Source: Marinobacterium profundum (GTDB taxonomy: Bacteria; Pseudomonadota; Gammaproteobacteria; Pseudomonadales; Balneatricaceae). From it: a DNA stretch of 64,000 nucleotides. The position numbers and the translations under genes were made by a program. This document shows positions 5,919 to 64,000 of the stretch, piece by piece. Below the pieces are notes generated by a model. The model was not told the DNA's origin. It worked only from the letters and a program-made list of their open reading frames with translations, and did no database searches. The stretch lies in NCBI RefSeq assembly GCF_001528745.1, contig NZ_BCNS01000128.1, positions 1 through 64,000 on the forward strand, given 5' to 3'. The first letter of the stretch is position 1, and the number at the start of each line of letters is the position of its first letter.

Positions 5919-5993
5919 AGGTCGCCCTGTTCGTTCAGCACCGCGCCTGCGCCAGCTGCGCACGCGGCATGCAATACATCCGGTGGTTAAATA

Positions 5994-6020: not shown

Positions 6021-6034
6021 CCGTCAGGCGGGCA

Positions 6035-6367
6035 TCAAATATTCTTGATCGTGCCCTTGGGCAGTGCCGCCGCTACGTGCGCTTTCTGGAAGCTCAGCTG
6101 GGTGCCTTCGCAGACTTCCAGTACCACGTAGTCATCGCTGACCTTGGCGACCTTGCCGATAATGCCGCCAGCGGTGAGCACTTCATCACCCTTGGCCAGA
6201 TTACCGATCAGGTTTTTGTGGTCTTTTGCACGCTTGGCCTGTGGGCGCCACATGAAAAAGTAAAAAATCAGACCAAAGCCGACCAGAAACAGAATGTTGA
6301 AAATGCCTGGATCCAAACCGCCGACGCCGGTCTCTGCCGCCTGGGCTGAAGAAATCAGAAAGCTCAT
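6035..6367 (-). CDS. yajC: Preprotein translocase accessory subunit YajC
   Basis: YajC is a small single-span inner-membrane protein that associates with SecDF. The 110-residue product has one hydrophobic segment (about residues 22-42, GIFNILFLVGFGLIFYFFMW) and then the cytoplasmic domain with the typical pattern LAKGDEVLTAGGIIGKV. An AAGGAG ribosome binding site lies before the ATG. It sits between tgt and secD, the normal position. Confidence 0.96.
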   Translation of the reverse strand: MSFLISSAQAAETGVGGLDPGIFNILFLVGFGLIFYFFMWRPQAKRAKDHKNLIGNLAKGDEVLTAGGIIGKVAKVSDDYVVLEVCEGTQLSFQKAHVAAALPKGTIKNI

Positions 6368-6403
6368 CTAGCTTTACTCCTTAGAACGTTGAAATGCTGT
6401 GAC

Positions 6404-8586
<2,183 letters not shown>

Positions 8587-58892: not shown

Positions 58893-60421
58893 TGGAAACC
58901 TTGAATTACCTGCTACAGGGTTTTGCGGTCGCACTGACACCGGAAAATCTGATGTTCGCAGCCATCGGTGCCATCCTTGGCACCATCATTGGCGCCCTGC
59001 CAGGCCTTGGCCCATCCAACGGTGTGGCTATCCTGATACCCCTGGCCTTCAGCCTTGGGCTGCCGGCGAGCTCAGCCCTGATTCTGCTGACCTCTGTGTA
59101 TGCGGGTGCCATGTACGGCGGTCGTATCTCCAGTATTCTGCTGAATATTCCGGGTGACGAACCCGCGATGATGACCTGCCTTGACGGCTACCCCATGGCC
59201 CTGAAGGGCAAGGCAGCCGAAGCGCTGGCGATCTCCGCGATTGCGTCCTTTATCGGCAGCCTGCTGGCGACCATCGGGTTGGTGATTCTGGCGCCGATAC
59301 TGGCCAAGTTTGCACTGCGTTTCGGCCCAGCCGAGTACTTCGCGCTCTTTACGCTGGCCTTTGCGACCCTGGGCGGCATTACCGGCAAGAACCCAATCAA
59401 AACTGTCGTGGCGGCCTGCCTGGGACTGATGATCGCCACCGTAGGTGTCGATATCAGCACCGGCAATCAGCGCTACACCTACAACATTCTGGAGCTGTAC
59501 GAAGGGGTGGATTTCATTATCGCCATCGTTGGTCTCTTTGCCATCAGCGAGCTGCTGTTCTTTATTGAAATGCACGCCGGCGAAGGCTTCAAGAAGATGG
59601 CTTTGAACAAACTCAAACTGAGCATGAAAGACATTATTCAGGTACTGCCGACCAGCCTGCGCGGCTCCGTGCTCGGCTTTATCGCCGGCGTGCTGCCGGG
59701 TGCTGGCGCATCCCTGGGTAGCTTCCTCAGCTATACAATGGAAAAGAAAGTCGTCGGCAAGAGTGGGTATTTCGGTGAAGGTGACCCACGAGGAGTAGCG
59801 GCGCCTGAAGCCGGTAACAATGCGGCCGCTAACGGTGCGCTGGTGCCGATGCTGACCCTGGGCGTACCGGGCAGTGGTACCACGGCGGTGCTGCTGGCCA
59901 TGCTGATCTCGCTGAATATCCAGCCGGGCCCGATGCTGTTCACCCAGAACGCTGAGCTGGTGTGGGGCGTGATCGCGGCGCTGTTCGTCGGCAACCTGAT
60001 GCTACTGCTGCTGAACATTCCGATGATCGGTATTTTCGTTAAGCTGCTGAGCATTCCGCCCAAATACCTGATGCCGGTGGTGACCCTGGTGGCGTCAGTG
60101 GGCATCTTTGCCATCAGCAACAGCCCGCTGGACCTGTACTTCATGATTGGCTTCGGTCTGCTGGGCTACCTGCTGCGCAAGCTGCACATCCCGCTGGTAC
60201 CGGTCATCCTCGGCATGCTGCTGGGCCCTGAAATGGAGAAGAGCCTGCGTCACGCCCTGACTCTTTCAGACGGTGACTGGACCATCCTCTGGAGCAGTGG
60301 CCTGTCGTTGGGAATATGGGCAGTGGCGATTGCCGGCCTGATGCTACCCTACCTTATCGGCCCCATCCTGCGTCGGCGCATGGCTGTACAGGCAGAAAAG
60401 ACTCACAGTATCGTAGATTAA
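58892..60421 (+). CDS. tctA: Tripartite tricarboxylate transporter large permease (TctA family), system 3
   Basis: A 509-residue, 12-segment permease with GALPGLGPSNGVAILIPLAF, SVYAGAMYGGRISSILLNIP, GYPMALKGKAAEALAI, GVLPGAGASLGSFLSYTMEK, DPRGVAAPEAGNNAAANGAL and TLGVPGSGTTAVLLAML. The start overlaps the tctB stop by one base (TGATG). It is the last gene before a strong terminator. Confidence 0.96.
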   Translation: METLNYLLQGFAVALTPENLMFAAIGAILGTIIGALPGLGPSNGVAILIPLAFSLGLPASSALILLTSVYAGAMYGGRISSILLNIPGDEPAMMTCLDGYPMALKGKAAEALAISAIASFIGSLLATIGLVILAPILAKFALRFGPAEYFALFTLAFATLGGITGKNPIKTVVAACLGLMIATVGVDISTGNQRYTYNILELYEGVDFIIAIVGLFAISELLFFIEMHAGEGFKKMALNKLKLSMKDIIQVLPTSLRGSVLGFIAGVLPGAGASLGSFLSYTMEKKVVGKSGYFGEGDPRGVAAPEAGNNAAANGALVPMLTLGVPGSGTTAVLLAMLISLNIQPGPMLFTQNAELVWGVIAALFVGNLMLLLLNIPMIGIFVKLLSIPPKYLMPVVTLVASVGIFAISNSPLDLYFMIGFGLLGYLLRKLHIPLVPVILGMLLGPEMEKSLRHALTLSDGDWTILWSSGLSLGIWAVAIAGLMLPYLIGPILRRRMAVQAEKTHSIVD

Positions 60422-60552: not shown

Positions 60553-61197
60553 CTAAGTTTCCTCTCTCGCCTCGCGGGCGAATCCGCTTCGTGACAGCAG
60601 TTTCCCGCCGTCTGGACGCAACTCACCCTTCGGTGAAACGTGCCGGTAAAGTGTCTGGCGGGTAACGCCCAACTCTTCGCAGAGATCTGACACCTTGGTT
60701 TCCGGCTGGCCCATGGCGGCCATCGCCAGGCGTAGCTTGGCGGCGGTCATCTTGAAGGGGCGTCCCCCTTTCCTGCCGCGAGCGCGCGCCGAGGCCAGTC
60801 CGGCCACTGTCCGCTCAGAAATCAGCTCTCGCTCGAACTCGGCCAGTGCCGCGAAGATCCCGAATACCAACTTGCCCGCCGCAGTGGTGGTATCGATGGC
60901 TGCACCGTGACCGGTCAGCACTTTCAATCCGACGCCCCGAGCTGTGAGGTCATGAACGGTGTTGATCAAATGGCGTAGGTCACGTCCAAGCCGATCAAGC
61001 TTCCACACTACCAAGGTATCACCGTCACGAAGGGCCTTGAGGCATGCAGCCAATCCGGGTCGGTCATCCTTTCGCCCCGAGGCCATGTCTTCATATACAT
61101 CGTTCACCGCTACTCCGGCCCCGATCAGCGCGTCGTGCTGCAAGTCCATTGCCTGAGAACCGTCCGCCTTGGACACCCGCATGTAACCGATCTGCAT
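60553..61197 (-). CDS. Serine recombinase (resolvase/DNA invertase family)
   Basis: Small serine recombinases cut and rejoin DNA at paired res or inversion sites. The 214-residue protein has the nucleophile S9 in YMRVSK, the second catalytic block VVWKLDRLGRDLRHLINTV, FGIFAALAEFERELISERT with the E helix, and a C-terminal helix-turn-helix (KVSDLCEELGVTRQTLYRHV) after KGGRPFK. The C-terminus is 20-25 residues longer than usual. No transposase is beside it in the window. The repeats just upstream (61225-61329) are its likely target. Confidence 0.93.
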   Translation of the reverse strand: MQIGYMRVSKADGSQAMDLQHDALIGAGVAVNDVYEDMASGRKDDRPGLAACLKALRDGDTLVVWKLDRLGRDLRHLINTVHDLTARGVGLKVLTGHGAAIDTTTAAGKLVFGIFAALAEFERELISERTVAGLASARARGRKGGRPFKMTAAKLRLAMAAMGQPETKVSDLCEELGVTRQTLYRHVSPKGELRPDGGKLLSRSGFAREAREET

Positions 61198-61329: not shown

Positions 61330-61394
61330 AAAATTCGGCGACTCTCACCTCTACTATCCAACGACCGAACCACCGCCCGCCCACCTGAGCCTGA

Positions 61395-61455
61395 TGTATG
61401 CCAATTTGGCACACATATTTGACCACGAAAACAATGTATGCCATTCTGTCACACG
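61395..61455. promoter_or_regulatory. Two operator copies upstream of the toxin-antitoxin pair
   Basis: A 21-base near-palindrome with arms TGCCAA/TTGGCA extended to TGTA...CACA lies at 61395-61415, and a degenerate second copy beginning TGTATGCCA and ending CACACG lies at 61435-61455, exactly 40 bases on, on the same face of the helix. Ribbon-helix-helix antitoxins usually bind such paired sites to repress their own operon. Confidence 0.7.
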
Positions 61456-61549
61456 GATAGGGCCGGTAGTTAAGGTAGCCCTGTCTACGCACCGACGGCC
61501 TGTTTCGCCGTCCGGCAACATACACGACAGAGGTATAGGTGATTTTGTC

Positions 61550-61840
61550 ATGGCTACTACACAACACGCCTCTCAGAGACTCGTAACCAGGGCCTCTACT
61601 GAAGTGATTGAGCTAGTACAAGATGCGGCGGATATTTCCGGGGTTTCGGTATCCGATTTCTTGCGCGAGTGCGTAATCCAGCGTGCCAGAGCTGTGATCT
61701 CAGCTCACGAAGAGTTCACGCTGTCTGCACGAGGGCAAGAGCAGATCATGCAAGCACTGGAAAATCCGTCTCCGATTAATTCAAAGCTGCGAAACGCAGC
61801 ACGGAGACTCAAAGAACATGGCGGTTTCTACTCCACTTGA
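61550..61840 (+). CDS. DUF1778-family antitoxin (TacA-like)
   Basis: A 96-residue ribbon-helix-helix protein starting MATTQHASQRLVTRASTEVI; the open frame reaches further upstream to 61394 but that part covers the operators. The DNA-binding region (about 8-55) reads TRASTEVIELVQDAADISGV followed by SVSDFLRECVIQRA, typical of DUF1778. The C-terminal tail (SPINSKLRNAARRLKEHGG) should wrap the toxin. It overlaps the acetyltransferase gene by 23 bases, the normal layout of tacAT pairs. Confidence 0.92.
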   Translation: MATTQHASQRLVTRASTEVIELVQDAADISGVSVSDFLRECVIQRARAVISAHEEFTLSARGQEQIMQALENPSPINSKLRNAARRLKEHGGFYST

Positions 61841-62336
61841 ACTACAGCCACTGAACAAGGCTGTCCACAATCGAGAGGCGTTCGACTGCGGCGTCGAACA
61901 CCTCAACAAGTGGCTTTGCACCCAGGCAGTCTCTGCCGCAAAGCGCAACTTGTCACGAACCAAGGTGCTGGTGTCACCCGACGATCCGGGAACAGTGATT
62001 GGCTATTACTCAATAGCCAATACTACACTTCATGGGCTCGAAAAATATCCCAAGCAAGGGGCGCCAGCTCTCCTCCTGGGCCGTATGGCCGTTGATCAGT
62101 CCCACCAAGGTAAGCGGATCGGTGAGCAACTGCTACTGGCGGCGATGCGAGATACTGCGTACCTCTCAGCCGACCCCCGGCTGCCACCTGTAATTGGATT
62201 GGTAGTCGACCCCAAGGACGGCGCCGCCGGTTTCTATTTGAGTTACGGCTTTGACGAAATCGAGATGGATGATGGCATCACACGGCTGTTCATGCCAGTT
62301 TCAAAGTGCGTGGAAGTCACCGAAGCAATGAGCTGA
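61818..62336 (+). CDS. GNAT-family acetyltransferase toxin (TacT-like)
   Basis: Toxins of this group acetylate the amino acid on charged tRNAs and stop translation. The 172-residue protein has an N-terminal strand region (FDCGVEHLNKWLCTQA, the usual start of the family), the acetyl-CoA loop LGRMAVDQSHQGKRIGEQLL with H-Q-G-K-R-I-G, and the catalytic-Tyr stretch AAGFYLSYGFDEIE. Its start lies inside the antitoxin gene. Together they would stabilise the mobile segment at the right of the window. Confidence 0.92.
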   Translation: MAVSTPLELQPLNKAVHNREAFDCGVEHLNKWLCTQAVSAAKRNLSRTKVLVSPDDPGTVIGYYSIANTTLHGLEKYPKQGAPALLLGRMAVDQSHQGKRIGEQLLLAAMRDTAYLSADPRLPPVIGLVVDPKDGAAGFYLSYGFDEIEMDDGITRLFMPVSKCVEVTEAMS

Positions 62337-62741: not shown

Positions 62742-64000
62742 TTATAGGTTCCCTAGCCAATCAGACTCCGCCTCGATCTTACGGTTCTGCGGCAGGAAGT
62801 GATGCTCTAGGGTTCTCAGTAGCGCCTTGTCGGACTTCACCACCTCCCGTATCTCGTCCGGTCCCATGATGATCAGCTCAAATTTCGCCTTATTAGCTTC
62901 TCGAGTCCTGTCGATCCGGCACTGCGCATTGTGTGATAGAACGCCGCTGGTCCATAGCTCGAAGCGTGGTTTGGGGCCGTTCGGCGTTACGGCTTCGATA
63001 CGCTCCAAGTGCTGACGGACGCGGTTTATTCTTACCGTCAACCACTTTCCTATCTCATCATCACTGACCTGAGTGCCAGGGCCCATGCCTTTACACTCAA
63101 TCATTCGGGGACTGTTGCCCTCTTGCAGCAGGAATACGTCAACTTCAGCTTCTTCGTCATTGAGTCCTTTGCAGACCTTGTTGAGTACGGGCTGTCCCGG
63201 TGAATCTCTTCTGACGATATGTGCAACCAACAGTTCGAAGAAGGCTCCGCGCATATTGCCCATTGCCCCCTCCAGCTTGCTAAGGCGGCTAAACATATCA
63301 TCGAATTTTTCCGGGTTTAGCGATCCCATTGCCGCCTTAGTCAACGCCCCAACAAGCTCTTTGAAGGCTTCGGCTATCTCTTTGCCGAAAAGAGATTCTG
63401 GGGTTCCTGGGATCACGCCGACTTCTCTCAAGGCTCGAAATGCTTCGCGGCTGTAACGGTCGGCTACAAAGATGAAAAACACTCGCTTCATCGTTTTGAT
63501 GGACTGGAGAGTTTTTACCTTATGGACGAACGGTTCTATGTGGTGGAGTTTAACCGGGCTATTGAGTAATACATCACAGACAACAAAGCCAGGGCTTGGA
63601 GTGCTTTGATCCCTGTGCCATGAGAGAAGAGGAGCCAAGTAGCAGGGGGCTGATAAATCCCAGGTAAAGGTTCCTACCTGGGGGGGAGGACCTTCATCAC
63701 CGCGGAGCTTGATGCGGTCAAAGCTGGCCATACCCAGTCGCCGCAACCATTCCTTGATGCTGTCGAGTAATGCCCGCTCCGCTATGAGACGAGCACGGGC
63801 TAACGCAGGCTCCTGGATGCCTGCGCTTTGTTGGTAGGCTTCAAATAGCTTCTTAGTCATAACGCACGGACCAAGTCCGGGTAAGCTTTCAGTCACCAGG
63901 ATGTCTGCCTGCATCATACGCTGTAGTACCGTGCGAGCTCCCAAGTGCTTCTTCTGAGCAATTGGCGAGCCACAAGCACTGTCAAAGTCGGCTAGAGGCA
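62742..64000 (-). CDS. Probable PD-(D/E)XK nuclease-fold protein, 5' end outside the window
   Basis: I do not recognise the family. The frame is open from the stop at 62742 to the window edge; a TTG at 63944 would give 400 residues, and the frame continues 18 codons (PLADFDSACGSPIAQ...) to 64000, so the true start is probably beyond. Counting from that TTG, FFELLVAHIVRR (E237), EVDVFLLQEG (D269) and MIECKG (E283, K285) have the order E-D-ExK of PD-(D/E)XK nucleases, preceded by a helical region (about 190-235). Residues 90-165 hold a separate alpha/beta part. With a toxin-antitoxin pair and a recombinase nearby, a defence or DNA-processing role is plausible, not shown. Confidence 0.6.
   Translation of the reverse strand, partial: PLADFDSACGSPIAQKKHLGARTVLQRMMQADILVTESLPGLGPCVMTKKLFEAYQQSAGIQEPALARARLIAERALLDSIKEWLRRLGMASFDRIKLRGDEGPPPQVGTFTWDLSAPCYLAPLLSWHRDQSTPSPGFVVCDVLLNSPVKLHHIEPFVHKVKTLQSIKTMKRVFFIFVADRYSREAFRALREVGVIPGTPESLFGKEIAEAFKELVGALTKAAMGSLNPEKFDDMFSRLSKLEGAMGNMRGAFFELLVAHIVRRDSPGQPVLNKVCKGLNDEEAEVDVFLLQEGNSPRMIECKGMGPGTQVSDDEIGKWLTVRINRVRQHLERIEAVTPNGPKPRFELWTSGVLSHNAQCRIDRTREANKAKFELIIMGPDEIREVVKSDKALLRTLEHHFLPQNRKIEAESDWLGNL

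Follow-up and report, generated by a model that had tools for sequence, protein, structure and literature searches.

At the far end of a 64,000-base stretch of the Marinobacterium profundum genome (hereafter the ‘window’; the first 64,000 bases of the 75,243-base contig NZ_BCNS01000128.1) there is a gene cut short by the window edge, whose product an earlier note had described, from the letters alone, as an unrecognised protein with a PD-(D/E)XK-like pattern, lying beside a recombinase and a toxin-antitoxin pair; a setting from which it suggested an undescribed single-gene or multi-gene defence system. The locus poses two questions: is the protein a nuclease and, if so, what might such a nuclease be doing in this company? 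To answer them we computed directly the extent of the gene, its predicted nuclease folds, its conserved residues, the purifying selection acting on its homologues, its mobility and its defence neighbourhood. We consider the protein, with a probability of roughly two in three, to be a stand-alone nuclease, mobile and accessory, that acts against invaders and needs no partner methylase, its presumed role being one of defence.

Extent of the gene and search for relatives

On the minus strand, the frame is stop-free over 62742-63998, that is right up to the window edge, and the remainder of the contig completes it as a protein of 517 amino acids with an ATG start, the last 418 residues of which are encoded within the window (Table 1). 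The residues numbered E237, D269, E283 and K285 in the earlier note, on a 400-aa ORF opened by a TTG, are E354, D386, E400 and K402 of the full-length protein; their codons were checked and lie at 63234-63236, 63138-63140, 63096-63098 and 63090-63092, respectively.

Table 1. Positions of the gene, its predicted domains and its neighbours within the window
Feature	Position	Strand	Basis or remark
Gene of the 517-aa protein, clipped by the window edge	62742..64000	(-)	Full gene contig 62742-64295
C-terminal domain, predicted canonical PD-(D/E)XK, residues about 339-500	62796..63281	(-)	Homologue model, AF1548 match, conservation
Middle domain, predicted second PD-(D/E)XK fold, E173/D213/D241/K259	63309..63821	(-)	Own-sequence model, codons checked
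End of N-terminal winged-helix-like pair	63822..64000	(-)	Homologue-model secondary structure; remainder contig 64001-64295
TacA-like antitoxin	61394..61840	(+)	PF08681 5.8e-18, residues 62-140
GNAT protein, toxin-like partner of the TacA-like antitoxin	61818..62336	(+)	PF13508 3.5e-8
Serine recombinase (Resolvase)	60553..61197	(-)	PF00239 1.3e-42

The 517-aa protein matches no family in Pfam, NCBIfam or PHROGs up to an E-value of 1 and no model in PADLOC 2.0.0 significantly (best E 0.011); its sole match amongst PDB sequences, a ribosomal protein at E 0.45, was set aside as chance. Searches with family members return a scatter of weak matches. For 16 of them the best PADLOC match is to a Csx1 model (0.00041), with the CARF_PDDEXK models weak (best 0.00068); against NCBIfam 20.0 the best is an unrelated model at 0.043; and in 25 members the weak Pfam matches are to DUF4143 (in seven; best 0.00048), Mrr_cat (in five; 0.0029), NERD (PF08378; in four, at best 1e-4, with no match in the 517-aa protein itself at E 1), DUF234 (in three; 0.0069) and Card1_endonuc (in one; 0.029). 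Family members on small plasmids are annotated ‘NERD domain-containing’ in their records, and a Vibrio ‘nuclease; NERD domain-containing protein’, which may or may not belong to the family, appears in a listing of a phage-associated gene cluster in PMC12409351. Amongst viral protein models the best match, at 3.5e-4, is to a Synechococcus phage protein that is uncharacterised; it alone falls below an E-value of 0.001, the other matches being weaker and mostly nuclease-like. Within these libraries, and in papers other than preprints searched with indirect terms, we found no description of the family.

Homologues share 27-52% identity with the window protein, as judged over 40 aligned sequences, the window's included. 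The window fragment does not count as a row of its own, being contained in the full 517-aa protein; L009 is unaligned, its gene being split over two frames, as are L037 and L038, whose gene is identical to that of L036, the three still standing as separate loci amongst the 43 used for neighbour counts. Partial matches (L048-L050) were excluded from both alignments and neighbour counts, and L001, L002, L004 and L005 were excluded as duplicates of the window or the spurious match described below. The proteins of L027, L028 and L042 are 95-97% alike; L051, L052 and L054-L072 were fetched later and lie outside the 43 loci.

A predicted PD-(D/E)XK domain at the C-terminus

An AlphaFold model was made for a homologue from Massilia, which BLAST puts at 52% identity, using 24 further family members (amongst them the window fragment); its pLDDT is 84.1 and its pTM 0.71 over the full length. 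Working from the N-terminus of this model, we see two helix-helix-helix-strand-strand units (about residues 1-60 and 83-151), then a long helix, then a middle alpha/beta domain and finally an alpha/beta domain at the C-terminus. This last domain has AF1548 (1y88) as its best structural match, with a Z-score of 12.7, at 2.3 Å over 122 residues; further matches are to BspD6I (Z 9.8), residues 7-174 of Avs4 (9.4), FokI (9.2) and Card1 (8.7). Foldseek, run on the full homologue model, places Card1 first (E 4.9e-4), and the profile of the C-terminal domain likewise has Card1 (6wxw) as its nearest solved relative (E 0.0009), with Can2 at E 0.0014.

The residues E354, D386, E400 and K402 are kept in every one of the 40 aligned rows; since all four persist in sequences at 27-52% identity, the pattern is not a product of chance, and the reading of it in the earlier note was a sound one. 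The homologue model also contains the PD-(D/E)XK core which that reading implied. Having, in the model, both the core fold and the conserved D...(D/E)-x-K, the C-terminal domain belongs to the PD-(D/E)XK superfamily. The order of its D and E-x-K residues is common to the nuclease domain of Card1/Can2, from which the 517-aa protein differs in having no CARF domain before the nuclease and a winged-helix-like N-terminus instead.

A second predicted nuclease-type fold, and the N-terminal region

The portion preceding the nuclease core had been taken for a separate N-terminal domain; it is indeed separate, but probably comprises a pair of winged helices followed by another domain of nuclease fold rather than one unit. 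Folded alone, from the window's own sequence and 24 homologues, the middle domain gives a pLDDT of 92.1 and a pTM of 0.87. Its closest structural matches are AF1548 (1y88; Z 10.5), NucS (2vld; 10.1) and EndoMS (5gke; 9.7), followed by Cdn1 (8.9) and the nuclease part of Card1 (8.8), with Foldseek returning AspBHI, MspJI, EndoMS and NucS at E 3e-4 to 9e-4. On the evidence of this model, the middle domain has a PD-(D/E)XK core fold. That said, the RNA polymerase subunit RPB5, a non-nuclease, is also matched, amongst the rows from Z about 7.7 downwards, and the shared fold is therefore, alone, no proof of a nuclease here. The profile of the middle domain finds no nuclease amongst PDB sequences; its single match there, a spermidine synthase at 0.43, was set aside as chance.

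Within the middle domain, D241 and K259 are kept in 40 of 40 rows and D213 in 39. E173 is kept in 37, and D replaces it in two of the remaining three; L017 lacks both E173 and D213. Residue 243, two after D241 and the place where the canonical lysine would be expected, is never a lysine in the 40 rows; the conserved K259 is positioned, by model and alignment, off that canonical place and on the helix following the strand, a feature by which the domain differs from AF1548 and the mismatch nuclease NucS/EndoMS, whose fold it resembles. A lysine on that helix is the placement seen in some cap-snatching viral endonucleases, and enzymes of the cap-snatching type appear amongst the weaker structural matches (Z about 6.5). 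That the middle domain forms a second active cutting centre in each chain is a tentative suggestion, to which we give rather less than even odds. The two nuclease-fold domains of one protein have no profile similarity by hhalign (probability 0.2%), and for this reason we do not claim that they arose by duplication.

From the order of helices and strands in the homologue model, together with three marginal HTH matches in family members (0.079-0.091), the first ~150 residues are likely to resemble two winged helices. Two arginines of this region, R35 and R40, which are encoded beyond the window edge, are kept in 40 of 40 rows. The N-terminal profile has a sole PDB match, to a 98-aa putative periplasmic protein at 0.51, which was also set aside as chance.

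Neighbourhood in Marinobacterium profundum

Both neighbours named in the earlier note are recognised by profile: the serine recombinase and, over 61394-62336, the toxin-antitoxin pair, the true start of the TacA-like antitoxin being probably internal to the called ORF (Table 1). The eight scanned window neighbours give no significant CRISPR match and include no DNA methyltransferase. The genes past position 64000 are likewise defence-related, as had been supposed, and not unrelated. Directly beyond the edge lies gajA (536 aa; PADLOC model PDLC00098, 8.3e-234) and beside it gajB (355 aa; PDLC00140, 7e-150), forming a complete Gabija pair that is divergent from the gene of the 517-aa protein and 400 bp off. 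A scan of the interval between the latter and gajA found two promoter-like sites, where shuffled sequence gave a mean of 1.0 (sd 1.1), and no terminator. Beyond Gabija, a resolvase-like ORF and a HigBA-like pair can be recognised by eye, and a profile scan finds a tyrosine recombinase (PF00589, 9.4e-15). A HEPN_Toprim_N protein is also encoded in this part (contig 68458-69765, minus strand; L003:8459-9766), matching PF18871 at 2.6e-71, Toprim_2 at only 0.0097 and no PADLOC model; it is another candidate defence gene.

Similarity with all four of the congener stretches fetched ends at window position 60384-60417, the serine recombinase sitting just after the last stretch shared, and nothing from that point to the contig end is present in the next 14-16 kb of the four. 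The comparison suggests a variable block, with the proviso that the four stretches may not all represent the same site, because the flanking gene has a second genomic copy at 89% identity.

Distribution, mobility and selection

The gene was not found in the six other genomes of the genus, and occurs in one of 115 other genomes of the family and in one of 397 others from a phylum sample. When 369 genomes of the class were searched at the protein level, the gene itself came back along with one 43-residue match at 8.6e-4, which contains a stop and was taken as spurious. By tblastn, homologues are present in 357 of 72,556 plasmid records (333 covering at least 80% of the query), the carriers including E. 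coli, Klebsiella, Salmonella and others, for example pRK1 of E. coli W (L012), where the gene is annotated at 6034-7557 and its open frame begins at 5947. No homologue was found by the same means in 50,697 phage records. Scans of viral contigs gave none with the 517-aa protein alone, one full-length relative with one family alignment and, with another, one partial relative at a contig end. A scan in which each species was represented by a single genome found 28 loci (full-length matches in 25), which by their record titles belong to alpha-, beta- and gammaproteobacteria. Amongst 5,426 complete E. coli genomes, the pRK1 type is present over at least 80% of its length in 63 and the small-plasmid type in 15; of 75 places matching the E. 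coli W type, short partial ones included, 72 are on plasmids.

Three small plasmids (3,494, 3,605 and 4,686 bases) were examined, and none has a large gene besides the family gene; in L018, of 3.6 kb, no other ORF exceeds 146 aa, and records of 3,240 bases bearing the small-plasmid gene type appear amongst the matches listed. ColE1-type RNAI is found at the Rfam threshold in two of the three, the 3.5-3.6 kb pair, and these, with their one large gene, have no room for a methylase. A coarse methyltransferase motif scan of the 43 loci picked out an RsmC-like ORF, another whose annotation is integrase, and a third ORF. Values of dN/dS fall between 0.05 and 0.21 in 10 of 13 homologue pairs, the remaining three being saturated at synonymous sites; the homologues are under purifying selection.

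In Massilia (L024:4578-11915), the homologue is flanked by a glmS-like gene on one side and a TnsD/TniQ protein on the other, the arrangement that cargo of a Tn7-like transposon would show. Alkalimonas amylolytica carries the gene in triplicate (L036, L037 and L038), along with a 1098-aa PIN-TPR-GreABC protein, within a block that does not differ between copies for at least 9.1 kb; this is a recently multiplied element. An Acinetobacter johnsonii plasmid (L007) and a Klebsiella oxytoca plasmid give equal match score, identity and range, a likeness that suggests recent transfer between orders. In the 4.7 kb Klebsiella plasmid (L017), two tRNA genes follow the nuclease gene, at 1897-1982 and 2154-2229, called as Ile (anticodon AAT) and Arg (TCT). 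The region is matched, at least in part, by 120 plasmid records, 109 of them from Klebsiella, and amongst the partial matches listed the shared part holds the second tRNA.

Defence context of the homologues

Neighbours were counted in 43 loci, the window included, with flanks of at most 6-8 kb, a simple gene call giving 510 neighbour ORFs; defence or conflict genes were called by record annotation, by sequence cluster or by scanning 49 neighbour proteins with profiles. Such a gene was recognised in the flanks of 21 of the 43 loci (19 of 41 if L036-L038 are collapsed). In the other 22, no recognised defence gene was seen, 49 of the ~510 neighbour ORFs having been profile-scanned; some of these loci have transfer and housekeeping genes instead.

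Gabija is the neighbour in six of the 43: L003 (the window locus), L008, L016, L023, L034 and L042, the search of the flanks having used profiles built from five of these Gabija systems. Elsewhere we find Lamassu LmuA and LmuB with a Schlafen-type protein (L046), PDC-M68B (L033), TIR (L025), KAP (L013), PIN-TPR-GreABC (L038 and its copies L036 and L037), DUF4917/PDC-S21 (L042, also a Gabija locus, and by cluster L027 and L028) and AbiEii-like genes (L009 and L020 by annotation, L031 by cluster). Loci already counted hold extra systems: Qat in L008, Tmn in L016 and a PDC-M01A/Septu-like ATPase in L023. A DUF4238 gene lies directly downstream of the family gene in L010, L011, L012, L051 and L052, and a member of the DUF4238 family is described in PMC9122126 as giving strong resistance to T7. 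Three of these, on enterobacterial plasmids, share the gene order HEPN - 259-aa protein - family gene - DUF4238, the first of these encoding a HEPN nuclease. The 259-aa protein lies at L010:4978-5757, L011:4993-5772 and L052:4994-5773; its L010 copy has no Pfam match.

As a quantitative check on the neighbourhood, OLD-type TOPRIM genes were counted, of which there are 13 in 22 genomes (111 Mb from rounded sizes, the genome of L045 excluded). Three of the 13 are within 8.5 kb of a family gene, where 0.044-0.048 would be expected (Poisson P about 1.4e-5 to 1.8e-5); this excess shows clustering in islands, not joint function. Mobile genes cluster for reasons besides shared function.

Discussion

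We infer that the 517-aa protein is a new variant amongst PD-(D/E)XK defence nucleases, on the strength of a predicted fold and of its surroundings. The closest working analogy for the predicted nuclease would be with Type IIT restriction enzymes such as Mva1269I and BtsCI, which like the 517-aa protein have two different domains in one chain, the second centre being putative in our case. As described in PMC4081073 and PMC6097692, Type IIT enzymes include single chains with two distinct catalytic domains and as a rule sever both strands during a single binding event. The differences are that no methyltransferase partner was found with the 517-aa protein, which, because no methylase was found alongside, lies outside Type IIT restriction-modification as tested, and that the lysine of its putative second centre is on the following helix. 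Amongst the structural matches of its domains are AspBHI/MspJI and BspD6I/FokI; these combine a DNA-binding part and a PD-(D/E)XK part in one chain, with one nuclease fold per chain. Searches of PDB sequences with the family gave no match to AspBHI, MspJI, BspD6I or FokI.

In the mechanism we propose, the N-terminal winged helices would bind DNA and the canonical C-terminal PD-(D/E)XK centre would cut it once bound. The middle fold may act as a second cutting centre, such that one chain cuts both strands in the manner of Type IIT; alternatively, it may hold the DNA as a non-cutting clamp. No methyltransferase travels with the gene, so self and non-self would have to be told apart by something besides a cognate methyl mark; candidate triggers might be modified bases, free DNA ends, or structures that form as phages or plasmids replicate. 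We infer DNA binding, cutting, trigger and defence alike. Of the two forms that a defence system might have taken here, the single-gene one is favoured over the multi-gene one, because homologues are the only large gene on small plasmids. The neighbours of the family gene vary among loci and hence no obligate partner or operon is seen. This variation counts against the preferred reading, as do the 22 loci in which no defence gene was recognised amongst the neighbours scanned, the dearth of relatives in the phage records and viral contigs searched, the loss of E173 and D213 in L017, the failure of the middle domain to match a nuclease by sequence in the PDB and the lack of profile similarity between the two nuclease-fold domains. 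A bolder version, in which the family constitutes a new class of solitary restriction nucleases with paired winged helices and two active centres (the middle one lysine-migrated), making methylase-free double-strand breaks in the DNA of invading phages or plasmids and recurrently serving Gabija as its downstream effector, we consider unlikely.

The recurrence of Gabija raises the possibility that the protein is an accessory part of that system, working with GajA/GajB, for example by processing DNA exposed by GajB. In three of the six loci concerned, the family gene does come after gajB, in the same orientation and at a distance of 246 (L008), 207 (L016) and 168 bp (L023); even so, the best PADLOC model for GajA is not the same in L008 as in L016 and L023. 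In the other three the arrangement is looser, the window pair being divergent, that of L034 lying about 3.7 kb off and that of L042 having another gene between. The protein matches the models of neither GajA (an OLD-type ATPase/TOPRIM) nor GajB (a UvrD-like helicase), and the family gene is mostly found without Gabija, small plasmids carrying it alone; given that 37 of the 43 loci show none in the fetched flanks, we set an obligate Gabija partner aside. The six cases also fit general clustering in islands, and we regard an accessory role as decidedly improbable. The affinity of the C-terminal domain with Card1 by profile, the Foldseek match of the full model to Card1 and the weak CARF_PDDEXK matches would suit instead a signal-activated nuclease of the Card1/Can2 kind, switched on by a cyclic nucleotide in its N-terminal half, and L030 has nearby a Polbeta/SMODS-like nucleotidyltransferase, also with a HEPN match. 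The domain before the nuclease, however, is predicted to have a PD-(D/E)XK fold and aligns to residues 230-373 of Card1, its nuclease part, rather than to a CARF domain, which is why we set this reading aside; the first ~150 residues resemble winged helices, the small plasmids have no space for a signal synthase gene, and the reading seems to us highly improbable.

The heavily plasmid-borne distribution of the family, including its standing as the only large cargo of small plasmids, could speak for a house-keeping nuclease of plasmids or transposons, serving stability, plasmid competition or transposition rather than acting against phages. Two of the three small plasmids examined, though, replicate from a ColE1-type RNAI origin, which needs no such protein, and the family gene is also found on chromosomal contigs with defence systems and, in L022, adjoining a phage terminase gene; we judge a house-keeping function rather improbable. 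A stand-alone, mobile, accessory anti-invader nuclease remains our preferred reading.

The family is without a model in the libraries tested, yet is present in hundreds of plasmid records, and its copies adjoin genes from families in which activity against phages has been demonstrated. The small size of the gene allows direct testing, and the presence of two predicted nuclease folds in one chain makes for a testable model of cutting. If the proposal is true, methylase-free restriction of phage or plasmid DNA by this family would raise the question of how its hosts achieve self-recognition.
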